From: a bacterium
GTDB lineage: Bacteria > BMS3Abin14
Assembly (NCBI GenBank): GCA_029210545.1
Contig: JARGFV010000015.1
Coordinates: forward strand, 1 to 34,949
DNA: 34,949 nucleotides
Direction: 5' to 3'
Below are positions 10,583 through 29,283 of the stretch, in pieces (the first letter of the stretch is position 1; each line of letters begins with the position of its first letter). A program made the position numbers and the translations under genes. The notes below the pieces were generated by a model. That model made no database searches, had not been told where the DNA came from, and was given only the letters and a program-made list of their open reading frames with translations.

Positions 10583-12034
10583 ATGAAAAATGTGAGTGAT
10601 AAATTTGTGGCCGCACGGTTGGTGCTTTGCGTTCTTTTGACGCTAACTGTCGGATGCCGTGGAAAACAGGCCGCCTTCGATCCGGCTTCCCGTTTCACCG
10701 ACCCTGGTCCCGAACGGGTCCGGGAACTGGGGGTTTACTCCGGCGATAAACGGGTCGGAGACCTGACCTTCGCGGCAAGGGACGGCAAGTGGGATCAGAC
10801 CGTCCCCGCCCGGGAGCTGTCCGAGGCGGTGACCCTTCGCCTGTCGTTCCGTGGGGACCGTTTCGAGATGGCCTCCGTGGGCCGATCGTGGGTGGACGGG
10901 GAACTGGGACTTTTAGGCAGCGTGGCTCAGATCGACTTCGGCGCGGGCGGCTGGGAGACCCGTGCCATCAGGACCGGTCCCGGCACCTTCCAGCGGGAGC
11001 AGATAACGGGAGGTTCCAGAAGCCGGGAGAAGGTCACCATACCGGAAAAGGCAGTCCTGACCGACGTGCTTCCCCTTTTCCTGAACCGAAACCCGGGTGA
11101 GGTGGGAAAAGAACGGTCCATGGGTGTGCACAACCTGACCCTGGGCCAGGATCTTCCGTTCACCTCCGTGTACCACGGCCAGACACCCATGGGGCGTTCC
11201 TTTACGGTGAGGTACTGGGGGATGGAGGAAAGGCTCTGGCTGGACGATGACGGGATGGTCACCAGGGAGGAGATGGCCCTGGGCGTGGTGGCGAGGGAGC
11301 CCGGCGATGGAGAAGTTGAAGGCGCCCTGCCCCTGGAACAGATCCTTTCCCAGACAGCGGTCCCGGGCACCGGCATCCCCGATGACCTCGGGGCGCGTTC
11401 AAAGGCCGAGATCACCCTCGAAGGTTCCTTCCGTAAGTTTCCCGATACGAGATGGCAGACCGTGAAGATGGGTGACGGCAGCGCCACCGTTACCCTCGAA
11501 TCGCCCCGGGTTCCGCCTCCCGGCGCCAGGGTGAGCCAACAGGGTGAATCCCCGGCCGACACTTTCGGCCTTGACCTCGATTCCTCCCGTATCAGGGAGT
11601 TGGCTGCCGAGGTGACCAAGGGCGTCCAGGATCCGTGGGAAAAGGCGCTCGCCGTCGGGAGGTGGGTCTACGGCAACCTGGGCAAATCGATGCGCGAATG
11701 TTTTTCAGCTCTCACGGTGCTCGAAGCCGGGGAGGGGGAGTGCCAGTCCCACAGCCTGCTCACCGTAGCCCTGTGCCGCGCTTCCGGGGTGCCTGCGCGC
11801 TTCGCCTACGGCGTGGTTTACCTGCCCGACAGGGATGCCTTCCTCTTCCACACCTGGGTGGAAGTCCACGTCGGTGAATGGATCCCCATCGATCCAACCC
11901 TGGGCAATTTCCCCGCGGGCGTCGATCACCTGACCCTCGCCGTGGGCGGGTACCGGGACCAGCTCAGGCTCTTCCCGTTCATAATGGGAAAAGGGGGCTG
12001 GCGGATATCCATGCCGGAGGCCAGGGACGATTAA
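10583..12034 (+). CDS. Putative exported lipoprotein with transglutaminase-like (papain-fold) domain
   Basis: The 483-residue product has an N-terminal hydrophobic segment ending in Cys25 (LTLTVGC, a loose lipobox), so export and lipid anchoring are likely. The C-terminal third is a transglutaminase-like domain: GEGECQSHSLLTVALCRASG with Cys387, FLFHTWVEV with His423 and WIPIDPTLG with Asp437 form a complete Cys-His-Asp triad, preceded by KALAVGRWVYGNL. The region 30-330 is beta-rich with no family I recognise. In bacteria such domains act as peptidases or amide-bond enzymes as often as cross-linkers, so the reaction is unknown. It interrupts carB-pyrK although nothing links it to pyrimidines. 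Start ATG 10583 lacks a clear ribosome binding site. Confidence 0.85.
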   Translation: MKNVSDKFVAARLVLCVLLTLTVGCRGKQAAFDPASRFTDPGPERVRELGVYSGDKRVGDLTFAARDGKWDQTVPARELSEAVTLRLSFRGDRFEMASVGRSWVDGELGLLGSVAQIDFGAGGWETRAIRTGPGTFQREQITGGSRSREKVTIPEKAVLTDVLPLFLNRNPGEVGKERSMGVHNLTLGQDLPFTSVYHGQTPMGRSFTVRYWGMEERLWLDDDGMVTREEMALGVVAREPGDGEVEGALPLEQILSQTAVPGTGIPDDLGARSKAEITLEGSFRKFPDTRWQTVKMGDGSATVTLESPRVPPPGARVSQQGESPADTFGLDLDSSRIRELAAEVTKGVQDPWEKALAVGRWVYGNLGKSMRECFSALTVLEAGEGECQSHSLLTVALCRASGVPARFAYGVVYLPDRDAFLFHTWVEVHVGEWIPIDPTLGNFPAGVDHLTLAVGGYRDQLRLFPFIMGKGGWRISMPEARDD

Positions 12035-16466: not shown

Positions 16467-18662
16467 GTGACCAAGACCGATACCAGACTCAGGCTTCTGG
16501 TCCGAAGAAGTCCAGGGCTACCGGAGCAGCAGCTCGGGAAGTTCCTTCCCGGCCGCCTGTTTCAGGTGGACGTGGCAGATTGCGCCGATGAACTGGAGCT
16601 TATGCTCCGCGGCACCGAACCGGACGTCGTCCTTCTCGATCTGTCGACGCCGACCCTGGACAACCGCAAATCCTTCGACGTGGTCAGGTTACTTGCCCAG
16701 CCACCCCCGATCCTTGTTTTCGGACCCAGGGAAAACCTGTCCCTGCTCTCCAATTTCATCAAGCACGGTGCCCACACCATGTTCTTTATCGAGGACGATC
16801 CGGATGTCATTACCCATGCCATCCGGCAGGCCGCCGACCTTTCCCGCCTTCGCAGGGAAAACCGGCGTCTCCGGACGGCCCTGGATCAGAAGAACCGTAC
16901 CGTTGGGATCCTGGAGCATCTCGGTGAAGCCATGTCCACGGTCTTCGACGTCCGGCGGATCCTCAACCTCACCTTGAAGGTCGTTCGCCGCGCCCTGGAT
17001 TGCGAGGCATGCGGCCTGTATCTGCTTGATGGTGACAGCCCGGATCTGGTGGACGTGAGAGACCTGGGGTTCACGGACGGGCACCCCCAGATGAAACTGT
17101 GGAACGGCGGGGGCGCCAACAGGTCCGACATCCTTCGGGCAGCTGCCCAGGCGTGCCACGACAGGGGCCAGTCCATCAAGCTGGACACCAGCGCCGACGT
17201 GGCGGCCATCATTCCGGGTTCGAACGAGAGCCAGGACGGCGGGGAGATCACGTGCCTGCTGGCCGCTCCCCTCAAGGTCGGGAAGCTGAAACTGGGAACC
17301 CTGGTGGCGGTCAACAGGCTCGACGGAGCCGGTTTCACTCAACGGGACGAGGATATCATCGTGGCGGTGGGCCGGCAGACCGCCCTCGCCCTGGCAGGGA
17401 TGCAATCCGCCGAAAGGGAGACCAGTTTCCGGGAGGAACTCTCGGCCCAGGTGCAGGTGGCCACCGGAAAGCTCAAGGAGCGGAACCTGGAACTGACCAG
17501 GAGGCTGCGCGAGAAGGAGGAAGCCAACAGGAAGATCCGGGAAATGGCCGAGGAGATCGCCGACAAGAACAGCTCCCTCGAGGACATGGTCAAGCAGTTT
17601 GCCGTTATCCACGAGGTCAGCCAGGTCATCGGTTCGGAACTCCAGGACGAAAAGCTCATCCGCAAGATCATCGTGGAAACGGCAGCCCTTCTCAAGGCCG
17701 AGACCGTATCGGTCATGCTTAAAAACGGCGACGGTTGCCTCAGGATAAAGCACGCGGAAGGTCTCGACACCGATATCATCAAGGCGACGAGAGTGAGGCC
17801 GGGGGAGGGGATCTCGGGATGGGTGGCCGAGGAAGGCAAGCCTATCCTCGTCAGGGACGTATCCAGCATACGGAAGGATGCCCCTGACAAGACCCTTTAC
17901 CACAGCGATTCGCTCCTGTGCGTCCCTCTCAAGATCAAGGGCCAGGTGTCGGGTGTCCTGAACGTCACCAACCGCAAGGGCGGCGGCTCTTTCGACGAGA
18001 GGGACCTTTTCCTCCTGACGATCCTCGGCAACCATGCCGCTATCGCCATCGAGAACGCGAAGCTTTACACCGCCATCCGGGAGAGCTATTTCAAGACCAT
18101 CAAGGCCCTCGTCAACGCCGTGGAGGCCAAGGACAGCTGGACCAAGGACCATTCGGAGAACGTGACCAACTACAGCCTGAAGATCGCCGATTACCTGGGC
18201 CTCTCCGACCAGCAGAAAGACATCATCCGTTACGCGGGCGTGCTCCACGACATCGGGAAGATCGTCATCTCAAGCACCATCACCGACAAGCCCGGAAAGC
18301 TGACCGGCGACGAGTGGGAGCGGATCAAGGAACACCCCCTTATCGGACAGCGCATCCTCGACCCCATCGACTACCTGGAACCGGTCAAGATCTGCATCCA
18401 GACCCATCACGAGCGGTGTGACGGTTCCGGGTACCCATTTGGCCTGCGGGCTCACGAGATCCCCCTTGAGACGCGCATCCTTTCGGTGGCGGACGCCTAC
18501 GATGCCATGATCCATTCTCGTCCCTACCGTTCGGCCCTCACCGTAAAGGACGCGGTGGACGAACTGAAAAGATCGGCCGGGTCCCAGTTCGACCAGGCAG
18601 TGGTGGGGAGCCTGGTCCGGATCATCGAGGCGGAAGACAGGGAAGAGTCAATTAGGCACTGA
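16467..18662 (+). CDS. Receiver-like/GAF/GAF/HD-GYP signalling protein (probable cyclic di-GMP phosphodiesterase)
   Basis: The 731-residue product has, in order: a receiver-like domain (about 8-125, Asp58 in VVLLDLSTP, the rest degenerate), a GAF domain (about 150-310), a long coiled coil (about 320-375, RRLREKEEANRKIREMAEEI), a second GAF domain (about 385-535) and a C-terminal HD-GYP domain (about 545-725). Metal and signature residues are intact: HDIGK (His594-Asp595), HHERCDGSGYP (His647, Gly655-Tyr656-Pro657) and VADAYDAM. HD-GYP proteins hydrolyse cyclic di-GMP to pGpG or GMP. No membrane segment is seen, so sensing is cytosolic. GTG 16467 has a GGGGAA ribosome site. It precedes the surface-protein cluster. 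Confidence 0.92.
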   Translation: MTKTDTRLRLLVRRSPGLPEQQLGKFLPGRLFQVDVADCADELELMLRGTEPDVVLLDLSTPTLDNRKSFDVVRLLAQPPPILVFGPRENLSLLSNFIKHGAHTMFFIEDDPDVITHAIRQAADLSRLRRENRRLRTALDQKNRTVGILEHLGEAMSTVFDVRRILNLTLKVVRRALDCEACGLYLLDGDSPDLVDVRDLGFTDGHPQMKLWNGGGANRSDILRAAAQACHDRGQSIKLDTSADVAAIIPGSNESQDGGEITCLLAAPLKVGKLKLGTLVAVNRLDGAGFTQRDEDIIVAVGRQTALALAGMQSAERETSFREELSAQVQVATGKLKERNLELTRRLREKEEANRKIREMAEEIADKNSSLEDMVKQFAVIHEVSQVIGSELQDEKLIRKIIVETAALLKAETVSVMLKNGDGCLRIKHAEGLDTDIIKATRVRPGEGISGWVAEEGKPILVRDVSSIRKDAPDKTLYHSDSLLCVPLKIKGQVSGVLNVTNRKGGGSFDERDLFLLTILGNHAAIAIENAKLYTAIRESYFKTIKALVNAVEAKDSWTKDHSENVTNYSLKIADYLGLSDQQKDIIRYAGVLHDIGKIVISSTITDKPGKLTGDEWERIKEHPLIGQRILDPIDYLEPVKICIQTHHERCDGSGYPFGLRAHEIPLETRILSVADAYDAMIHSRPYRSALTVKDAVDELKRSAGSQFDQAVVGSLVRIIEAEDREESIRH

Positions 18663-19015: not shown

Positions 19016-20653
19016 TTGGGAAACGCGGTTGAAAAGGAGCGCAAGGGGACTATTGGAGAACGGTTCGTCTCACCTTTGATCCTGCATGTCGGCGCACTTT
19101 TCCTTGTCATCGGATCTTTGCTCCTGCTGCCCTGTAAAGCCCTGGCCGTGTGCGCCTGCGGAGACGGCGACGGACAGCCCACCCTTTACGAACCCATCAC
19201 GATCGACGGCAGTGTGGCCGACTGGAACACGACGATCGCCGATGAGGACAACAACGTGTGCGATGGCCCTGCGGGAGGTCTGACCGATCTGGACGCCCCC
19301 GTTCCATCCATCGGACGGGATATCGTCCAGTTCTCCTACACCTACGACAACACGTGGCTGTACCTCTACACAGAAAGGCTTGGTGGCGATAGTTCCGCCA
19401 ACACCCAGACGTTCCTCTTCTACGCCGACACCAACGACGACGGTTACATGAGCAGCACCGAGACGGTCATCGTGGCCGAGTGGAAGGGGAACAACAGGCT
19501 GGTGAGCATTTACCTCGCCCAATACAACCCGGTGGATGCCGTCAACGGTGACTCCACAGTGGACTCGGCCGGGTTCGGCGACGGCTATGCCCTGCCCGGG
19601 AACCTCAAGAACATCTCGAGCGCCATATCGACTTACTCCGGACACTACGGGACGGCCGATGGCTTCGCCATGGAGTTCGCCATTAACTGGTTTGCTCTCG
19701 ATCCCAGTTTCACCGGACCTGTCGGGCACACGATCCACGTTTCCAGCACCAACGTCAACAAGAGCGCCAACGGCCTGGGCGCCCAGATCAACGACAACCT
19801 GGGCGGGTGCGGCGGCGGCGGCGGATCCACCCAGTTCGCCGACCTGGATTTTTCGCCAGCGTATACCCTGTCCGGGTACTGGGGAGACACCGTGTGGGGC
19901 CTTCACCACTTGGTGAACCTGGGCAACGGAGACGACGCCTTCGCCTTCGCCTACACCATCCTCCCCACGACCTGGTCGCCAGCGGTGACCCTTTACCTGG
20001 ACGACGGCGACAGTATTTACGACACGGGCGATAGCCTCATCGCCGGTACGGTGGCCCTTGCCAGCGGCAGTTCCGTGGACATTTTCACCGTGTACACTAT
20101 TCCGAGCTTTTCTTCGGGCATCGCCACCGTGGTGACCACCGCTACCTCGCAGTACAACACCGCCGTGGCCGATTCGGTGAGCGATACGGTGAACGCACCT
20201 TACCCCAACATTTCCAGCATGAAGTATATTTCGGCCGTTGCCGACAGCACCGCCGCCACACCCGGGGGCGCCGACAAGGCTCTTCCCGGGTCCGTGGTGA
20301 CCTACACCATCACGACGACCAACAGCGGCAACGCGCCCCCCAACAGCGATTCCCTGGCGATCCGGGACTCGATCCCTGCTGTCGTAACCATGTACGTCGG
20401 CACGGGGGCGGCTTCGCCGGTCACCTTCGACGCGGGGACCACTTTGCTCTCATACTCTTATGTAAGCTTTGCCAGCACGGGCGACGACATCGCCTTTACC
20501 AGCGGGAGTTCCGCCTCCCCGGCCTACACCTATACACCGGTCCCCGACGCGCAAGGGTACGACAGCGCGGTGACCGGGTTCAGGATAGAACCCCAGGGGG
20601 ATTTCGACGGATCGACAAGCTTCGATCTCACCTATCAGGTGATGATCCCATAG
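19016..20653 (+). CDS. Secreted protein with CBM9/DOMON-like, GNG/DDGD and DUF11-like modules
   Basis: The 545-residue product has a signal peptide (hydrophobic LILHVGALFLVIGSLLLLP, likely cleavage near ALAV). The mature part begins with a CBM9/DOMON-like beta domain (ITIDGSVADWN, IVQFSYTYDNTWLYLYTERL) to about residue 270. A module with NLGNGDDAFAF and LYLDDGDSIYDTGD follows, shared with two downstream genes, then a C-terminal DUF11-like module (ADKALPGSVVTYTITTTNSG). TTG 19016 is preferred because GGGAGGG lies 5 nt upstream; TTG 18998 has no site at proper spacing. It is the first gene after the strong promoter. A sugar- or surface-binding role is inferred from the fold; no catalytic residues are recognised. 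Confidence 0.8.
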   Translation: MGNAVEKERKGTIGERFVSPLILHVGALFLVIGSLLLLPCKALAVCACGDGDGQPTLYEPITIDGSVADWNTTIADEDNNVCDGPAGGLTDLDAPVPSIGRDIVQFSYTYDNTWLYLYTERLGGDSSANTQTFLFYADTNDDGYMSSTETVIVAEWKGNNRLVSIYLAQYNPVDAVNGDSTVDSAGFGDGYALPGNLKNISSAISTYSGHYGTADGFAMEFAINWFALDPSFTGPVGHTIHVSSTNVNKSANGLGAQINDNLGGCGGGGGSTQFADLDFSPAYTLSGYWGDTVWGLHHLVNLGNGDDAFAFAYTILPTTWSPAVTLYLDDGDSIYDTGDSLIAGTVALASGSSVDIFTVYTIPSFSSGIATVVTTATSQYNTAVADSVSDTVNAPYPNISSMKYISAVADSTAATPGGADKALPGSVVTYTITTTNSGNAPPNSDSLAIRDSIPAVVTMYVGTGAASPVTFDAGTTLLSYSYVSFASTGDDIAFTSGSSASPAYTYTPVPDAQGYDSAVTGFRIEPQGDFDGSTSFDLTYQVMIP

Positions 20654-20660
20654 GAGTAAA

Positions 20661-20693
20661 CGTCCGTAGGGAGAAATATCTCACCATGGACGG
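20661..20693 (+). other. Imperfect stem-loop before the second surface gene
   Basis: CGTCCGTAGGGAGA (20661-20674) pairs imperfectly with TCTCACCATGGACG (20679-20692) around a 4-nt loop, just before the GAAGGAGGGG ribosome site of the next gene. It could be an mRNA stabiliser or processing site; no T-run follows. Confidence 0.4.
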
Positions 20694-20708
20694 AAGGAGG
20701 GGCGGGAC

Positions 20709-21704
20709 ATGCAAAGATTAGCAATGGGAACAGCCCTGGCCGCGGCCATACTGCTGGGGGCAGCTGCCCCGGTATCCGCCCTGGGCACCGATGCCGGTAC
20801 GGTGATCGAAAACCGCGCCATGGCGACCTACGACATCGGACCGGCCACGAACCTCACGGCATACAGCTCCACGGCATCCACTACCGTGGACGAGATCATC
20901 GATGTCGCTGTGGGCAGCGCCGGATCCGGGACGACCTTCATCTTTACGATTCCGGCGGCAAACCAGCCTTTGCTCTTCACCGTGACCAACAACGGCAACG
21001 GTACCGAGCCGTTTGTCCTTACTATCGTGGAGAGCGGCAGCGACGATTTCGACACAGATCCGCCCGCAGGAGCTCCCGCCACGCCGGGAGTGGAGATCTA
21101 CATTGATGATGGCGACGCCATTTTCACCTCGGCGGATGCCGCCTACGGTACCAGCCTTACCCTTGTCGAAGACGAAATCGTCAACGTGTGGGTCATCCAG
21201 GATATCCCCGCCGCTGCCGGTTCGCCAGGCGATATCGCTGCCATCACCCTGGAGGCTGCCCACCGGCACGCACCGTTCAGTACCGTTCCGGGGACCTCCT
21301 ACACCGGAGAAGGGGATGGCGGAGGGTTAACCGATGCCGTTCTAGGGGTCAACGGTGGAACACGCAGCGTGACCAAAGTCTACGAACTCACCCTCACGGT
21401 CCTGAACATGGTCAAGTCCTACGCCGTCGCCAACACCCTGGGGACAACGGATCCCATACCGGGAGCCACCGTCACCTACACCATCGAGTTCGGGGTCACC
21501 GGGGCAGGAGGTATCGACAACCTTGTGATCACAGACCCCATCCCGACCAACACAACCTTCGTGCCGGCTTCCATAACAGCGGGGCCTATAACGGCCGATT
21601 CGGAGGCCCTCATCGGTTCCACCGTCACGGTCTTCTATGCCAGCACCACCATAAGTGCTGTGGCAGGGACCCAGACCATCACCTTCGATGTGACCATCGA
21701 TTAG
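20709..21704 (+). CDS. Secreted three-module DUF11-type protein
   Basis: The 331-residue product has a clear signal peptide (residues 1-25, ending PVSALG). The mature protein opens with GTVIENRAMATYDIG, then a VDEIIDVAV segment; this N-terminal module recurs in the genes at 22404 and 23418. The middle module has TNNGNGTEPFVLTI and EIYIDDGDAIFTSADAAYG. The C-terminal module is DUF11-like (PIPGATVTYTIEFG, LVITDPIPTNTTFVPAS). No cysteine pair, sortase or lipobox signal is visible, so the attachment mode is unknown. A strong GGAGGGG site precedes ATG 20709. It is co-oriented with, and 55 nt after, the previous gene. Confidence 0.8.
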   Translation: MQRLAMGTALAAAILLGAAAPVSALGTDAGTVIENRAMATYDIGPATNLTAYSSTASTTVDEIIDVAVGSAGSGTTFIFTIPAANQPLLFTVTNNGNGTEPFVLTIVESGSDDFDTDPPAGAPATPGVEIYIDDGDAIFTSADAAYGTSLTLVEDEIVNVWVIQDIPAAAGSPGDIAAITLEAAHRHAPFSTVPGTSYTGEGDGGGLTDAVLGVNGGTRSVTKVYELTLTVLNMVKSYAVANTLGTTDPIPGATVTYTIEFGVTGAGGIDNLVITDPIPTNTTFVPASITAGPITADSEALIGSTVTVFYASTTISAVAGTQTITFDVTID

Positions 21705-21715
21705 GAGGTGAGAGC

Positions 21716-22210
21716 ATGAAACTTGTTAACCGTTTTCTTGTCATTTTCTTCCTGCTGACCATCATTGGTCCGACAGCACAGGCCCGGGAAGAGGGTGGTG
21801 TGACGCTGACTTCAACGATCCTCCGCCAGGTGGAGTTGGAGAACGAAAAGGGAGAGAAGGAGATCGACCTCGTACCCGTGGACAAGGCTCTCCCGGGGGA
21901 GGAACTGATCATCCGGATCACTTACACGAACTCCGGTTCCGACCCGGTCGAGAACATCGTGATCGTCAACCCCGTTCCCGATCAGACGTCCTACCTGGTC
22001 GGGTCCGCCAGCGGTGATTTCACCCTGGTGACCTTCTCCATCGACGGTGGCGGCGGCTTCGACCTGCCGGAAAATCTCACTGTCGAGGACGAGGAAGGCA
22101 GCCGGAAACCGGCGCCCCCGGAAATATACACGCACATCCGGTTCAGGCGGATCCAGGCCCTGCAGCCAGGGCAGACGGACAACGTCTCGTTCCGGGCCGT
22201 TCTGAAATAA
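21716..22210 (+). CDS. Small secreted DUF11-like single-module protein
   Basis: The 164-residue product has a signal peptide (residues 1-23, ending AQA) and essentially one DUF11-like module: VPVDKALPGEELIIRITYTN, then VENIVIVNPVPDQTSYLVGSAS. The C-terminal half adds GGGGFDLPENL and a final ALQPGQTDNVSFRAVLK strand typical of DUF11 ends. GGAGGTG lies 6 nt before ATG 21716, and the gene starts 11 nt after the previous stop, so co-transcription is near certain. It could be a periplasmic adaptor or minor subunit; that is inference. Confidence 0.8.
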   Translation: MKLVNRFLVIFFLLTIIGPTAQAREEGGVTLTSTILRQVELENEKGEKEIDLVPVDKALPGEELIIRITYTNSGSDPVENIVIVNPVPDQTSYLVGSASGDFTLVTFSIDGGGGFDLPENLTVEDEEGSRKPAPPEIYTHIRFRRIQALQPGQTDNVSFRAVLK

Positions 22211-22323
22211 AAACGGGGAAAGAACGGGCTTTCGCGGATCTGGAGCCCGATAACAGGATCAAAAAGAAGAAAAAGAATGGGAGGTGGTATTCGATTGGAT
22301 CTGAAAAACGGCCTGATTTGGCG

Positions 22324-22368
22324 GGCACCAGGCGGAAGGAAGCTGCAAGTTCTGAGCAGTCTGGTGCC
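22324..22368 (+). other. Nested hairpin in the gap before the fourth surface gene
   Basis: GGCACCAG (22324-22331) pairs exactly with CTGGTGCC (22361-22368); inside it CTGC (22343-22346) pairs with GCAG (22356-22359). It lies in a 193-nt gap with no recognisable gene and could set relative expression of the flanking genes. Confidence 0.4.
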
Positions 22369-22403
22369 ATTAAAGCGCATTCCAATGCGAGATGGAGAAT
22401 ATA

Positions 22404-23399
22404 ATGAAAACTCGAAAGAAGTTAATACTTACGGCACTGACGGTGGCCCTCGCGGCGGCTGTGGTCCCGGGCTCCGCTCTGGCCGGCGGGACCTGGGCGG
22501 GAACCGTGGTGGACAACACGGCTCTGCTGAGCTGGGATATCGGGTCCGTCGCGTACACCACGAGCGATACAGCGACCTTCGTGGTTGACGAACTGATCAA
22601 CGTACAGGTCACCAACAACGTCCTGGGTACGAACCTTTCGGTGTGGCCAGGAGACACCTTCCGGCCCCTGGCCTTCGACGTTCAGAACGCGGGTAACGGC
22701 ACCATCGACTTTTATGTCGAGGCGCTGGGTGACGGAGCCTTGTTCGTCACCAACGTCAATATCTGGGCCGACTCCAACGGCAACGGTACCCTGGACACCC
22801 TGGTCGACGTGAACCTCGGTGCAGGGCCCATTACCGAATCGTCGGTGACGATGGATACGGTCTACACCTTCTTCATCGTGGCAGACGTTGGCGCCTCGCC
22901 CGTTACGACAAACACCCCGGATACCTACGACCTGCGGGTGATGGCCTACCGGGCGGAAGCAGCCATTACCGCCGACAACGGCGCCGCCTTCAACGCGACA
23001 ACCATCGAACAGGTCATGGCCGACACCGGCGGAACTGCCACCGGTTTCGCCGATTACGATGGCGCCGATTCAGCCCGGGCTGTTTACAACCTCGTGTGGG
23101 CAAACCTCAGCCTGACCAAGTCGTTCACGGTCATCGACACCGATCCGATGAACAGCGGACAGCACGCCATCCCGGGAGCCACGTTACGTTACACACTTCA
23201 CGTGCTCAACTCCGGAACCGGCGCGGCAACCGCCCTGTCCATCGCCGACGCAACCCCGGCAGGCACCACCTTCGGGGCTGTCCAGTCTGCCTCTGCCGGG
23301 ACCGTGGATAACATCGATCCCATCATGTGGAGCATCAACTCCCTTGGCGGCGGTTCTTCGGCCGATCTGGTCTTCGACGTGACCATCACGGGCCCCTAG
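22404..23399 (+). CDS. Secreted three-module DUF11-type protein (paralogue)
   Basis: The 331-residue product has a classical signal peptide (KTRKK, hydrophobic core, SALA cleavage). The mature N-terminus GTVVDNTALLSWDIG followed by VVDELINVQVTNN is paralogous to GTVIENRAMATYDIG and VDEIIDVAV in the gene at 20709. The middle module contains VQNAGNGTIDFYVEA, and the C-terminal module is DUF11-like (AIPGATLRYTLHVLNSGTG, then ATPAGTTF). ATG 22404 is preferred over ATG 22392 because GGAG lies 6 nt before it and the signal peptide then starts MKTRKK. The equal length (331) and module order suggest duplication of one subunit gene with strong divergence. Confidence 0.8.
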   Translation: MKTRKKLILTALTVALAAAVVPGSALAGGTWAGTVVDNTALLSWDIGSVAYTTSDTATFVVDELINVQVTNNVLGTNLSVWPGDTFRPLAFDVQNAGNGTIDFYVEALGDGALFVTNVNIWADSNGNGTLDTLVDVNLGAGPITESSVTMDTVYTFFIVADVGASPVTTNTPDTYDLRVMAYRAEAAITADNGAAFNATTIEQVMADTGGTATGFADYDGADSARAVYNLVWANLSLTKSFTVIDTDPMNSGQHAIPGATLRYTLHVLNSGTGAATALSIADATPAGTTFGAVQSASAGTVDNIDPIMWSINSLGGGSSADLVFDVTITGP

Positions 23400-23417
23400 G
23401 AACGGACAGCGACGTTC

Positions 23418-26400
23418 ATGGGTCTTCGATGGCGGTTTGACATGGTTCCACCCTCCCCCAACGCCGGCATTTTTGCCGCGCAGGGACCGGTGCGTTTTTC
23501 CGTCCGCCGCCTGATAAACGTGATGGGTGTCTTCACAACAAAGTTGAGCCGGTGGAGCGGTCTTGCGGCCGTTCCATCGGCCCTGCGCGCGCCTGGTTCC
23601 CGGGGATTACCCGCGGGTTCCAGGCCCACGCAGGCCTCTGTTTATGCCGTTTTGCTATTACCGTTACTGTTACTGGCGTTTATGCCGGCTGTAGCCACTG
23701 CCGTCCCCGCCGGCACCGTTATCACCAACACGGCCGGCGCGGATTACACCATAACCGGCACGCCCCAGTCTGCCGTCTCCAACTCTGTCAGCCTCACCAC
23801 GGTGGTCCTTGGCACCCCGTCTACCCTGGAGCTTTACAGGTACGCACCTTCCGCCCCGGCCCTTTTCCTCACCGTTGGGATCACGCCCTATTTCGATGGA
23901 GCATCTTTTGTCCCGGCGCCGGCACCCTCTGACCCTGCCACCGGGACCAGTATCGACCTGTCCGTACCGGTGCCCCTGGAGCCGGCCGCCAACTTCAGCC
24001 AGGGCGATCCCGTTTTTGTCCTGCTCACCGATCCCGACGGCAACATCAACCCGGCGGTGGCGGACACTATCCGCGTCGAGATCGAGGATCCGGGTTCCAC
24101 CCTGGTGGAAACCGTTCTTCTGACCGAGACGGGCGTCGACACCGGTGCCTTCACCGGGTACATCCTGTCGGGCGCTCCCTCCGAGACGGCCAACGACGGC
24201 CAGCTTTTCGGTTACCCGGGTGCCCAGTTCACCTCCCGTTACACCGATACGGCGGTCCCTGTGGACGTGTCTACGGCGCTTTTCCTCTTCGATGCGTCCG
24301 GCGTGCTCTGGGTCACGGCTGTACCGGGCAAGGGGACCGTATCTGCAGGCGATTACCTCACCTACACCATCACCGTCCAGAACAGCTCCGGAACCACCGT
24401 GCCCTCGACGGTGCTCACCACCGACCTTCCCGTGGGGTTCCGTTACGAGGCTGGCTCCGCCAGGACCGCCGCTGTGCCTTCTCCAGATCCCCTCACGGCC
24501 CCTGACGGCAGATCCCTGGCCTTCTCGGTGGGGGATATTCCTCCCGGTGGGACCATCGAGATAGTCTTTGTCGCCAGGGTTGGGGCCGCCGCCAGGACAG
24601 GCAGGGCCGTGTCTCCCAATACCGCGAGTTCCGGGGTCCTGGTGTCTAATACGGCCCTGGCAGTCGTGCGCGTCAAGGAGGATCTGTTCAAAAGCCGGAA
24701 CACCATCATGGGCCGGATCGTTGCCGGCGCCTGCGGGGATACCGATGGTTCCGGTGTGGGCGGAGTCACGGTCTTCCTGGAGGACGGGACTTTCGTGGTG
24801 AGCGATGAAAAGGGCCGGTTCCACTTCGAAGGGGTACGGTCCGGAACTCATGTCCTGCAGCTGGACCTGGAAACGGTGTCCGAAATGTACGATGTCGTGG
24901 CCTGCGACGACGATACGCGCCAGGCCGGCCGGCCCTGGTCCCGGTTCGTGGACCTTGCCGGCGGTTCCCTGTGGAGGGTTGATTTCTACCTGGTACCCAA
25001 GGCCCCCACCGCTGGCAAGGCGGTCCTTGTCCTGAAGACGGTTTCCCAGGTCGACCGGGTCACCTTCAGCGCTTCCATGAGGGGCGAGCATGTTCCGCTG
25101 GGTAACGTGCGGTTCAGGGTGACCCTGCCGGAGGGAGTGGAGTTCGAGCCCGGTACGGTCATGCTCGAGGGAGAACCTGTAGGCGATCCGGTGGCGGACG
25201 GCCGTATCCTCACGTGGAATATCGGCGATGTGCCGGGCGTCTGGGAGAAGGGGATCACCTTCGAAACGAAGATCCTGGAGAATTGGGACTGGGCGAAAGA
25301 GAACATCCTGGAGCCCCTCGGAGAGGACGGTACCTTCGAACCGGTGAAGAATATCCAGGGGCGCATGACCGAGGTCGTAAGTTCGGCCAGCGTCACCTTC
25401 GACACCCCCCTCCGGGCCGATATGAGCACCCCTGAGGTCCAGAACGTCCTGCTGAAGGCTTCCGAGAGGGAGGAGACCCGCACGCGGAAGTTTGTCTTCC
25501 GGCCCCATTTCGCCACCTTCGAATCCCGGCTGACAGCGGAAGACAAGGAGGCGCTGGATATCATCGCTTCCCAGTTCGATCCGGGTGAGATCGGGAGGGT
25601 CCAGGTCACCGGGCACACGGACAATGTGCCCATCAGCAGACGCGGCCGGCAGATATACTACGACAACCACGACCTGTCCAGCTCGCGGGCAAAAAGCGTC
25701 GCCCGCTACCTTCGGAGCGTGTGGGACCTTCCCTCAGGTATTTTCATCACCGATGGAAAGGGGCCGGACGAGCCGGTGGCCTCCAACGATACAGCCAGGG
25801 GCCGTACCCTCAACCGGCGGGTTGAGGTGAACGTCATAACCACCACGGTGGAGACCCGGACCGAGCTCGAGCCCATCGACGATCAGAACATCACCGAGAT
25901 CGTTATCGAGGGGTTAAGGCCGGGCCAGAGGAGGGCGGCGTCAGGCCTGGCGCCCGAACTCGATGTCCTGGAACCTGGGGCTGATGCTGCCGGTTCGGCC
26001 GAGGTTGACCTACTGGCGGACAAGGGCTGGCTCGAAGATACGGACGGCTCCCTGGAGTGGGTGTACCCGCCGGCGGGGTATGCGTTCAGGGTCCCCGGTA
26101 TCAGGGTGGCAGTGAAACACGATCCCGGGAGCGAGGTTAAACTGACGGTGAACGGGAACGAGGCGCACCGCCTGAACTTCATGGGGACCGAGTACAATGC
26201 CGGCAGAACTGCCGCCCTGAGCGTCTGGAAAGGTATCGAACTCAAGACGGGGGACAACGTTCTCAAGGTGGAGGAGATCAACAGCCTTGGCCTCGTTTTC
26301 AGGACCGTGGAGAGGGAGGTCCACCTGTCAGGTTCCCCCGTGAGCGTCCAGTTCCTGCCTGAACAGTCGGTCCTGGTGGCCGACGGACGAACCGTACCGG

Positions 26401-29114
26401 TTGTGGCGGTTCGCCTGACAGACGAGGATGGGTACCCGGCGCGGATCAAGTCCATGGGACAGTACTTCGTGGACACGCCCCACCAGCCGTTCAGATCCGG
26501 GGGCGGCAGGGGGGATGCTTTCTTCGGGGTCGAGGAGAACGGGATCGCCCGGCTCATGCTCAAGCCCACGGTCAGAACCGGTGATGCCGCTGTCCGGGTC
26601 AGGCTTCAGGACGGTGAGGAGGAGATCAGGGTCTGGCTTAACGCCCAGCGGGAGGAATGGATCCTGGTGGGCCTGGCGGAAGGGACCGTGGGATACAATA
26701 CGGGGAGCGGCAACATGCAGTCCCTTGAGGATTCCGGCGGCGAGGAGGATCTCTATTACGATGGCCGTGTCGCTCTCTTCGCCAAGGGCCAGGTCAAGGG
26801 AGAGTACCTCCTGACCATGTCCTACGATTCCAACGGGCCCCATGGAGCCGCCGGGGAAGGACTTCACGGAACCATCGATCCGGACAGCTACTACACCCTT
26901 TACGGAGACGGTACCGAACAGGATTACGAGGCTCCCACATCGAAGAAGCTGTACCTGAAGATCGAGAAGGGACAGTTCTACGCCCTCTTCGGCGACACCA
27001 GCTCCGGCCTGACGGTGACGGAGCTCTCCCGGTATGATCGCAGGATCACGGGCCTGAGATCGGAGCTGAGGGGTGAAAAATACTCCTACAACCTCTTCGC
27101 CTCCGAGACGGAGCAGGGTTACATCCGGGACGAGATCCCGGGTGACGGGACCTCGGGTATCTACCGCCTCTCGGTGCCCGATGTCGTCATCAACTCCGAT
27201 TTCATCCGCATCGAGGTGAGGGACCGGTTCCAGTCCCACGTTGTGCTCGCCACGGAAACCCTCACCAGGCACGTGGACTACAGCATCGATTACAGTGACG
27301 GGACCCTCTTCTTTAAAAAGCCGGTTCCCGTGCGTGACGAGTTCTTCAACCCTGTGATCATCGTTGCCGAGTTCGAAACGTCGGACCCGGATGCGGCGGG
27401 TCTCACCTACGGCGTGAGGGGCGAGGTTGCCCTGGAAGGCGCCGGAACAACGGTGGGCCTTTCCCGCATTCACGAGGACCGAGGCCAGGACGAGGGTGAT
27501 ATCACCGGGATCGATATCACAGCCCGCCTCTCGGAAGGGGTGCACCTTCGCGCAGAGGCAGCGGCTAGCAGCAACGTTGTGTCAGGCAATGCCGATGATG
27601 CATCCGCCTTCATCGTGGAGCTGGCAGGACAGACTGAAAAGAGCAAGGGAACCGTCTACCTCAGGGAAACGGAATCCGGGTTCGGGCTGGGGCACCAGAA
27701 CAGTTCCGAGGTGGGGACGAGAAAGAGGGGCCTCCAGGTCGAGCACGCCATATCCGAAACGGTGGGTGTGACCGCTGAACTGTTTGATCAGGAGAACCTG
27801 GAGACCGGAGCCGATCGGCAGGTCCAGGAACTGGGCGCGGTGAAGACCGCGGGAAATACCGTTCTGAACGCCTCCGTGCGGCAGGCCAGGGATACCGACA
27901 GCGACGGTACGGAAGAAAGCAGCCGCCAGCTGACGGCGGGTGCCAGATGGCATTCCGGGGATCAGCGGCTGGAACTGCGCGCGAACCGCGAGCAGTCCCT
28001 GGGGGACAACGCCAATACCGATTATCCTACCAGGACCCTGCTGGGGACCGATTACCAGCTGACGGACAGGGTATCCCTCTACGCCGAACAGGAGTACACC
28101 GACGGGGACGATACCTCCGTGACAAGCTCCAGGCTGGGTATGAGGGCCAAACCGTGGGAGGGGGCGGAGGCGGTTTCCACGGTCGACAGGAAACATGACG
28201 AGAACGGTGAGCGGGTCTACGCCACGACGGGCCTGGACCAGACGTGGCGGATCAACCCCCGCTGGCGGCTGAGCGCCGGCCTGGAAAGCGCCAGGGTTAT
28301 CCGGGAGTCCACCAGTGAACCGCTGAACCCTGACGCTCCTCCGGTTTCCAGTGAAGAGGATTACACCGCGATCTCCCTGGGTACCGGCTATACCCTCGAA
28401 CTCTGGGATTTCGACCTGCGGTACGAGTCCCGCAGCGCCGAGAGCAGCGACAAGCGTGGGATCGTGTACGGGATGTTCGGTGAGCCCGCCGACGGTGTGG
28501 GGATCTCCCTCGATCTGAAACAGTTCAGGACCGAGTCCGATCCCAACGTCCGTCAAACGGAAACGGATCTTCGCATAGGGATCGTGTACCGGCCGTGGGA
28601 CCGTCGATGGACCTTCCTGAACCGACTGGACTACTTCTCGGATGAAGAGACCGGCGGAGGGCTGGATATGGAATCGTGGAAGGTCGTGGATAACCTCAAT
28701 GCCAACTTCAGGCCGGCGGACGACCTCCAGGTCTCCTTCAAGTACGGGATAAAGCAGGTCAAGGATACCGTGGATGGACAGCTTTACAGCGGGACGACCC
28801 AGCTGCTGGGAGTGGACAGCCGGTACGACCTGACGCGGCAATGGGATATCGGTGCGTGGACGAGTGTCCTGGCCGCCCTGGACGCGGGTTCAACTGACTA
28901 CGGACTGGGTGCTTCGGTCGGGTACGGCTTCATCGAGAACCTGTGGCTCAGTTTCGGTTACAACCTCCACGGTTATGAAGATTCCGATTTCTCCCAGGGC
29001 GATTTCACAGCCCAGGGCCCCTTCATCAAGTTCCGTCTCAAGTTCGACCAGGAGAGCCTGAGGGGGATACTGGGGAAAGGCAGGAGCCATGAGCCTGGAG
29101 CCGGGAGCCGGTAG
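23418..29114 (+). CDS. Giant outer-membrane protein: DUF11-like, Sdr/CNA-B-like, OmpA-like and C-terminal beta-barrel regions
   Basis: The frame encodes up to 1,898 residues. The true start is uncertain: the hydrophobic signal segment lies at residues 75-95 (VYAVLLLPLLLLAF, cleavage near AVATA), so a start at ATG 23523 or later is likelier than 23418, which has no ribosome site. The mature N-terminus GTVITNTAGADYTITG repeats the module of the 20709 and 22404 proteins. Then come a DUF11-like module (about 305-400), an Sdr/CNA-B-like fold (about 430-500), an OmpA-like peptidoglycan-binding domain (about 690-810, VTGHTDNVPI, LSSSRAKSVARYLRS, RTLNRRVEV) and from about 1080 a long run of alternating strands ending FIKFRLKFD, a probable beta barrel. 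The last about 10 residues are encoded by an intergenic-type heptamer repeat. It is likely the membrane anchor or export partner for the four upstream proteins. Confidence 0.82.
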   Translation: MGLRWRFDMVPPSPNAGIFAAQGPVRFSVRRLINVMGVFTTKLSRWSGLAAVPSALRAPGSRGLPAGSRPTQASVYAVLLLPLLLLAFMPAVATAVPAGTVITNTAGADYTITGTPQSAVSNSVSLTTVVLGTPSTLELYRYAPSAPALFLTVGITPYFDGASFVPAPAPSDPATGTSIDLSVPVPLEPAANFSQGDPVFVLLTDPDGNINPAVADTIRVEIEDPGSTLVETVLLTETGVDTGAFTGYILSGAPSETANDGQLFGYPGAQFTSRYTDTAVPVDVSTALFLFDASGVLWVTAVPGKGTVSAGDYLTYTITVQNSSGTTVPSTVLTTDLPVGFRYEAGSARTAAVPSPDPLTAPDGRSLAFSVGDIPPGGTIEIVFVARVGAAARTGRAVSPNTASSGVLVSNTALAVVRVKEDLFKSRNTIMGRIVAGACGDTDGSGVGGVTVFLEDGTFVVSDEKGRFHFEGVRSGTHVLQLDLETVSEMYDVVACDDDTRQAGRPWSRFVDLAGGSLWRVDFYLVPKAPTAGKAVLVLKTVSQVDRVTFSASMRGEHVPLGNVRFRVTLPEGVEFEPGTVMLEGEPVGDPVADGRILTWNIGDVPGVWEKGITFETKILENWDWAKENILEPLGEDGTFEPVKNIQGRMTEVVSSASVTFDTPLRADMSTPEVQNVLLKASEREETRTRKFVFRPHFATFESRLTAEDKEALDIIASQFDPGEIGRVQVTGHTDNVPISRRGRQIYYDNHDLSSSRAKSVARYLRSVWDLPSGIFITDGKGPDEPVASNDTARGRTLNRRVEVNVITTTVETRTELEPIDDQNITEIVIEGLRPGQRRAASGLAPELDVLEPGADAAGSAEVDLLADKGWLEDTDGSLEWVYPPAGYAFRVPGIRVAVKHDPGSEVKLTVNGNEAHRLNFMGTEYNAGRTAALSVWKGIELKTGDNVLKVEEINSLGLVFRTVEREVHLSGSPVSVQFLPEQSVLVADGRTVPVVAVRLTDEDGYPARIKSMGQYFVDTPHQPFRSGGGRGDAFFGVEENGIARLMLKPTVRTGDAAVRVRLQDGEEEIRVWLNAQREEWILVGLAEGTVGYNTGSGNMQSLEDSGGEEDLYYDGRVALFAKGQVKGEYLLTMSYDSNGPHGAAGEGLHGTIDPDSYYTLYGDGTEQDYEAPTSKKLYLKIEKGQFYALFGDTSSGLTVTELSRYDRRITGLRSELRGEKYSYNLFASETEQGYIRDEIPGDGTSGIYRLSVPDVVINSDFIRIEVRDRFQSHVVLATETLTRHVDYSIDYSDGTLFFKKPVPVRDEFFNPVIIVAEFETSDPDAAGLTYGVRGEVALEGAGTTVGLSRIHEDRGQDEGDITGIDITARLSEGVHLRAEAAASSNVVSGNADDASAFIVELAGQTEKSKGTVYLRETESGFGLGHQNSSEVGTRKRGLQVEHAISETVGVTAELFDQENLETGADRQVQELGAVKTAGNTVLNASVRQARDTDSDGTEESSRQLTAGARWHSGDQRLELRANREQSLGDNANTDYPTRTLLGTDYQLTDRVSLYAEQEYTDGDDTSVTSSRLGMRAKPWEGAEAVSTVDRKHDENGERVYATTGLDQTWRINPRWRLSAGLESARVIRESTSEPLNPDAPPVSSEEDYTAISLGTGYTLELWDFDLRYESRSAESSDKRGIVYGMFGEPADGVGISLDLKQFRTESDPNVRQTETDLRIGIVYRPWDRRWTFLNRLDYFSDEETGGGLDMESWKVVDNLNANFRPADDLQVSFKYGIKQVKDTVDGQLYSGTTQLLGVDSRYDLTRQWDIGAWTSVLAALDAGSTDYGLGASVGYGFIENLWLSFGYNLHGYEDSDFSQGDFTAQGPFIKFRLKFDQESLRGILGKGRSHEPGAGSR

Positions 29115-29226
29115 AAAACTTCCAGTGCATAAAGTGCATAGAGCGCCTGAAGTGCAAAAGTACCATGTACATGTCAGCGGTTTTCCTGCATTTTTTTGCA
29201 CCGCTCCTCCTGCACTTCATGCACTT
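29082..29226 (+). repeat. Heptamer array across a stop codon plus nonamer array with inverted partner
   Basis: Four 7-bp units ending GAGCC (29082-29109) encode the C-terminal tail of the giant protein and run into its TAG stop (29112-29114). Then 9-bp units AGTGCATAA, AGTGCATAG and AGTGCAAAA (29124-29159) face an inverted set containing TGCACTTCATGCACTT (29211-29226). Two different array types abut at one gene end. Confidence 0.65.
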
Positions 29227-29283
29227 GTTTAAAAGGGCAATTTCACCGCTGTACATAGTCCCCTAAATGAGAGAAAAAAGGCC

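Follow-up and report, generated by a model that had tools for sequence, protein, structure and literature searches.

To our knowledge, the splitting of an isopeptide-forming domain is known only as an engineered tool. The DUF11 domain, renamed CLIPPER in 2025, contains a Lys-Asn isopeptide bond in crystal structure 9IFR, where the Lys lies in the first strand, the Asn in the last and an Asp aids the reaction; the bond is absent from many DUF11 domains (PMC12617251). The crystallised adhesin (Acinetobacter silvestris B9T28_05395) resembles the cassette described here in domain family, in its Lys/Asp/Asn set and in its cell-surface context, and it also has an OmpA-like anchoring domain (PMC12617251). 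In that adhesin the whole domain and its bond lie within one chain, whereas in the cassette the domain is split across neighbouring proteins and the predicted bond would be inter-chain. DUF11 domains also build the surface filaments of the grappling hooks GhpA and GhlA, the latter a bead-like DUF11 array (PMC13319060). Each hook consists of a single giant chain in which dozens of intact DUF11 domains stand in tandem, whereas the cassette encodes separate subunits with split domains, and its first four proteins have one DUF11 apiece.

The window analysed is one entire contig of 34,949 nt, and the phylum of the genome was compared through 12 genomes, all of one family. Five genes, p1 to p5, form the cassette (Table 1), with intergenic gaps of 55, 11, 181 and 18 bases, a HD-GYP signalling gene upstream and ybgC downstream. 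GTGCA-type motif repeats in both orientations lie between p5 and ybgC (29120-29230). Elsewhere in the window a 483-aa ORF (10583-12034) with no NCBIfam match sits in a pyrimidine operon, flanked by carB and by the gene for the electron transfer subunit of dihydroorotate dehydrogenase. Searches for RNA elements and tRNAs in the window returned none.

Table 1. Positions of the cassette genes, their modules and the upstream signalling gene in the window.
Feature	Position	Strand	Remarks
REC-like/GAF/HD-GYP protein	16467-18662	+	predicted c-di-GMP phosphodiesterase upstream of cassette; possible regulator
p1	18998/19016-20653	+	551 aa; acceptor-only; tip candidate; orthologues in G003, G006, G011
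p1 variable N-terminal domain	19184-19861	+	
p1 middle module	19868-20323	+	
p1 C-terminal incomplete DUF11	20210-20650	+	Lys409 (20222-20224), Asp457 (20366-20368)
p2	20709-21704	+	331 aa; donor + acceptor
p2 N-module	20790-20912	+	Asn35 (20811-20813)
p2 middle module	20943-21398	+	
p2 C-terminal incomplete DUF11	21402-21701	+	Lys236, Asp276
p3	21716-22210	+	164 aa; signal peptide + single incomplete DUF11; non-catalytic cap or chaperone candidate
p3 incomplete DUF11	21821-22207	+	Asn85 at the acceptors' Asp site; lacks first-strand Lys
p4	22392/22404-23399	+	335 aa; donor + acceptor
p4 N-module	22494-22610	+	Asn42 (22515-22517)
p4 middle module	22635-23105	+	
p4 C-terminal incomplete DUF11	23106-23396	+	Lys243 (23118-23120), Asp286 (23247-23249)
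p5	23418-29114	+	1898 aa; donor-only; base/anchor candidate
p5 N-module	23706-23813	+	Asn104 (23727-23729)
p5 beta-rich domain	23826-24305	+	
p5 complete DUF11	24312-24629	+	
p5 CarboxypepD-reg/SdrD_B-like domain	24666-24992	+	
p5 OmpA domain	25509-25835	+	PF00691
p5 C-terminal barrel-like region	26658-29075	+	

The original prediction placed a DUF11 module in each of five consecutive + strand genes. The DUF11-type repeat profile TIGR01451 matched all five products (E = 1.1e-4, 1.3e-8, 2.5e-6, 2.4e-7 and 4.9e-9 for p1 to p5, the p1 score of 22.1 bits being just under the 24-bit cut-off) and nothing else in the genome; the profile-search outcome that would have refuted the original prediction did not occur. 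PF01345 scored above its cut-off for p4 and p5 as whole proteins and for p2 and p4 as C-terminal segments. Two shared modules were likewise confirmed, the middle one in p1, p2 and p4 and GTVxxNxA at the N-terminus of p2, p4 and p5, as was the proposed OmpA domain of p5 (PF00691, E = 1e-12), whose peptidoglycan-binding Asp and Arg (D735 and R757) are invariant in seven homologues. A CBM9-like domain had also been read into p1; neither Pfam nor PDB searches gave a genuine match and the identity was dropped. Matches of p5 to TraB and to type VI TssL were limited to the OmpA domain, and p5 was rejected as a relative of either. The C-terminal region of p5 is barrel-like, as predicted. The last strand of many homologues is aromatic and of OMP type, and PF13505 matches below its cut-off. 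Strand-like peaks numbered 34-42 by a rough measure of hydrophobicity, on which we base no strand count. No PDB relatives of the barrel were found, and AF2 with two sequences modelled the region at a pLDDT of 30. At the other end of p5, some 60-70 residues precede the signal peptide core (23418-23705) and hold a motif, APGSR...G.RP.Q, kept in relatives; this may be an extended signal peptide.

Within the phylum the gene order of the cassette is kept while its presence is patchy. The order of the five genes, which the original prediction had proposed to check in relatives, is intact in G003 together with both neighbours (HD-GYP gene, p1, p2, p3, p4, p5, ybgC). In G001 the HD-GYP gene is followed by a GGDEF gene, a different p1 and then p2, p3 and p4, with p5 elsewhere, adjoining ybgC. 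Parts of the cassette occur on contigs that break off in G006, G007 and G011, and only p4-p5, without p1 and p3, is kept in G002 and G008, genomes that are 73-81% complete; no cassette gene was found in four phylum members (G004, G005, G009 and G010). Six phylum genomes, those of the window and five others (L035, L055, L056, L057, L060), have the HD-GYP gene immediately before the cassette. G001 adds its GGDEF gene, and G007 a GAF-type gene of similar size. This neighbourhood suggests c-di-GMP control of the cassette. Conserved order, co-occurrence and the OmpA and barrel regions of p5 support the earlier proposal that the proteins form one assembly, anchored by the last of them; that the assembly is extracellular and that p5 exports it are further steps of interpretation. 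The p5 gene of G002 lies in two pieces about 400 kb apart (C1 1123359-1128251 and 727327-728010), through an assembly error or a rearrangement. A divergent second cluster type was also seen (L041 1763-12553 in G001, L042 in G011, L136 5580-12469 in G218), with small acceptors that have a variant N-terminus, NTATGxIxG, and an adjoining DUF11-CPD-OmpA-barrel anchor with the N-terminus IENTASG or similar.

The original prediction treated the N-terminal module and the DUF11 module as separate units; the data indicate two parts of one split domain. A complete DUF11 has a '...F.V.V' strand followed by 'aGTxIxNxAxv...SN...V', and the C-terminal DUF11 of p1 to p4 ends just short of the second part. 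Among the 46 non-anchor DUF11 proteins with a true C-terminus in cassette loci, 42 end at the DUF11 strand motif ('titFdVtI*') under a strict pattern, compared with 16/244 other ORFs from the same loci (p = 1e-32), and three of the four exceptions are near-matches. The missing piece is the mature N-terminus of p2, p4 and p5, directly past the apparent signal peptide. A profile made from N-modules only recognised 10/66 segments directly past internal DUF11 cores at >= 8 bits, compared with 4/530 controls (p = 8e-13), and two of these four control segments themselves directly follow a weaker DUF11. Appending modules to the truncated domains gave small gains in the same direction. The Pfam DUF11 match to the p4 C-terminal domain alone reaches only position 84 of 114; an appended donor module extends it to 94-99, and extends that of p2 from 80 to 98-99, for +1.1 to +2.9 bits, whereas shuffled modules gave -0.1 and -2.4 bits. 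With any of the three N-modules the p4 match runs through the Asn (+1.8 to +2.9 bits; shuffled, -0.1). Against our own anchor-DUF11 profile, donor modules on the C-terminal domains of p1, p2 and p3 did no better than shuffled modules and only p4 was clearly improved (with the p2 module, 0/200 shuffles; with the p5 module, 8/200). The Pfam and positional tests were therefore preferred to chimera scoring with this profile. Judged by sequence, the GTxIxNxA module is the final portion that the truncated DUF11 domains lack, and such a division into parts points to a mechanism of assembly. AF2 models of the p4 end and p5 start as an in-frame read-through (the window and one relative) gave pLDDT values mostly of 70-81 for the p4 DUF11, 50-54 for the donor and 21-39 for the linker, and contacts could not be read from the output. 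The modelled p4 DUF11 has 9IFR among its top PDB fold matches (E = 2.5e-4).

The residues of the isopeptide bond are kept and divided in the same way. The C-terminal domains of p1, p2 and p4 have the Lys and Asp and stop before the Asn strand; the Asn is carried by the N-modules of p2 (N35), p4 (N42) and p5 (N104), where alignment with 9IFR matches the GTxIxN Asn to the bond-forming Asn of that structure. By our count the catalytic Asp of 9IFR is residue 749 (with Lys 715 and Asn 806), while PMC12617251 gives Asp748. The 44 acceptor domains have Lys in 41 and Asp in 43, the remaining one having Glu. In the same alignment, only five of 13 p3 orthologues have the Lys and three the Asp (p = 1e-4 and 7e-8 compared with acceptors). 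The N-termini for the N-module profile were chosen by a pattern that requires Asn, and conservation of the donor Asn is therefore better judged on anchors found through their other domains; nearly all of these have it, with Ser in L096.

A donor-strand fibre without covalent links would leave the Lys, Asp and Asn as inherited structural residues, the two halves joining with no isopeptide bond. TasA fibres and chaperone-usher pili are held together non-covalently (PMC9674648, PMC9715654), and the bond is, as noted above, absent from many DUF11 domains. We nonetheless regard this reading as unlikely: the Lys and Asp are near-invariant in acceptors across phyla and not in the p3 proteins of the same operons, and constraint from the fold alone would not part acceptors from p3 so sharply.

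At least ten further clusters share the cassette design, among them clusters from Proteobacteria, Deinococcota and Cyanobacteriota, and Pfam detects DUF11 in the extra-phylum subunits independently of our own profiles. Strong relatives by the p3 profile were found in 6/374 genomes sampled outside the phylum. Five of the six genes have further DUF11 genes as neighbours, together with the anchor modules (DUF11, CarboxypepD-reg-like and barrel) on one large protein or on a pair; the sixth (G273) is on a short contig, with a barrel on another contig. Strong p3 matches and the barrel co-occur (8/9 compared with 19/377 genomes, p = 1.7e-9), also when only genomes outside the phylum are counted (5/6 compared with 15/368, p = 1.5e-6). 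Plasmid records from Acinetobacter haemolyticus, Novosphingobium, Deinococcus ficus and a Synechococcus have p3-like and anchor genes, and the remaining plasmid records have related DUF11 or barrel proteins only. Most tabulated clusters, drawn from those three phyla and from that of the window, consist of one donor-only anchor, one large acceptor-only protein, 0-2 proteins with both donor and acceptor, and one p3. The acceptor-only proteins vary most, with beta-helix (Deinococcus and the paralogous cluster of G001), AgmC-N-like (G319) and tandem DUF11 (Synechococcus) forms, as would be expected of an exchangeable tip adhesin. Deviations are a 279-aa ORF of A. haemolyticus without a clear donor, the L096 anchor with its Ser, and the G116 cluster, at a contig end, for which no tip gene was seen.

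Several variants were also seen. The AgmC_N-like N-terminal domain of acceptor-only proteins, from a gliding motility family, scores below the family cut-off (L151 3075-8201 in G319; L139 2695-4986 and L154 in G273). In G315 (L097/L143) and in a Deinococcus and a Synechococcus cluster (L147, L150), two neighbouring genes, one donor-DUF11-CPD and one barrel, together make up the anchor. Related barrel proteins without an N-terminal donor (L132-L135, L138, L043, L148, L149) include several with tandem whole DUF11 domains, borne on the barrel protein itself or on its neighbour, and may represent the cassette system in single-chain form.

The distribution of halves bears on two other readings. If p2 and p4, which have donor and acceptor on one chain, were circularly permuted and completed their own C-terminal DUF11, the operon would encode separate adhesins and an anchor and there would be no chain; p1 and p3 have an acceptor without a donor, p5 has a donor without a free acceptor, such orphan halves on different proteins recur in other clusters and argue against simple self-closure, and a middle module of about 150 residues lies between the halves of p2 and p4, all of which makes this account distinctly improbable. 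That the C-terminal strand motif instead serves as a signal to be recognised, for instance during export by way of the p5 barrel, with the N-module a stable beta hairpin and the proteins individual surface adhesins, would suit its exactly C-terminal position in nearly all proteins and the exporter role open to p5-like barrels, but the motif is an ordinary DUF11 core end whose missing residues sit at the neighbours' N-termini, and the conserved catalytic Lys and Asp go unexplained, which leaves this reading very improbable.

Module homology, truncation, division of residues, role pattern and synteny are all read from the sequences, and from them we infer that the cassette probably encodes a donor-strand chain of split CLIPPER (DUF11) domains, covalently self-linked and fixed to the outer membrane and peptidoglycan. 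In this chain, Sec would export the subunits, and removal of the signal peptide would expose the N-terminal module (AGTVIxNxA...), which would insert into the incomplete C-terminal DUF11 of the preceding subunit by donor-strand complementation. Since the acceptor holds Lys and Asp and the donor Asn, the completed domain should form its autocatalytic Lys-Asn isopeptide bond between two chains, as a natural counterpart of SpyTag/SpyCatcher. The tip of the chain would be the acceptor-only p1 and its base the donor-only p5, with p2 and p4 as links in between; p5 would be held by its C-terminal outer-membrane barrel and its peptidoglycan-binding OmpA domain. The order p1, p2/p4, p5 would follow from the donors and acceptors, which do not fix the relative order of p2 and p4. 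The p3 protein, with an incomplete DUF11 mostly lacking the catalytic Lys and Asp, may bind donor strands unbonded as a cap or chaperone. The absence of p1 and p3 from relatives that retain p4-p5, the few deviating clusters and the small size of the Pfam gains speak against this model.

The order of donor, OmpA domain and barrel in p5 leaves the position of its N-terminus relative to the outer membrane ambiguous. With the OmpA domain between donor and barrel, we expect the donor on the periplasmic side, unless the barrel is threaded by the N-terminal half of the protein, and a periplasm-facing donor is awkward for an extracellular fibre. Either the fibre and its base are united on the periplasmic side and the fibre then passes out by a pore, possibly that of p5 itself, or the assembly is periplasmic; the likeness of the acceptor-only proteins to adhesins makes a surface fibre our preferred reading. 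A more specific scheme, a self-ligating fibre class with a tip adhesin and subunits welded to the anchor, p3 dedicated to chaperoning donor strands without catalysis and the anchor barrel as fibre conduit, is possible, and we put it forward only tentatively.

Compared with described fibres, the chain proposed here consists of known parts in a new combination. Chaperone-usher pili likewise have incomplete Ig-like subunits, a donor at the mature N-terminus, a donor-less tip and an outer-membrane barrel partner, features predicted for the cassette from sequence; they differ in that the cassette base would bear a donor and be anchored in peptidoglycan, and in the covalent junction predicted for the cassette. 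Pfam and NCBIfam scans of p1-p5 (for p5, the best 25 NCBIfam families) gave no PapD chaperone or usher match. Archaeal threads (Saci_0406) and TasA fibres are, like the modelled chain, head-to-tail donor-strand filaments, in the thread with an isopeptide bond between subunits as well (PMC9715654, PMC9674648). Both belong to protein families different from the cassette's and are without an outer-membrane or peptidoglycan anchor, and the thread bond links the N-terminal Asp of one subunit to an Asn of the next but one, in contrast to the split CLIPPER triad (PMC9715654, PMC9674648). Among the papers searched, on DUF11 in connection with operons, OmpA, donor strands and fibres, none described this system, and a multi-subunit split-CLIPPER chain with its own outer-membrane and peptidoglycan base was not found in the literature searched; there is a fair chance that the cassette represents a new assembly principle. 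If the model is true, bacteria of several outer-membrane phyla build covalent surface chains by split isopeptide formation without sortase, and the common genes annotated as 'DUF11 domain-containing' would gain a function that explains their clustering with an OmpA/barrel protein. SpyTag/SpyCatcher has, like the modelled cassette, a Lys half and an acid/amide half that bond spontaneously (PMC6539128). That pair is engineered and of CnaB type, not CnaA-like, whereas the cassette halves are natural and chained and, if the model is true, would supply natural tag/catcher pairs for protein engineering.
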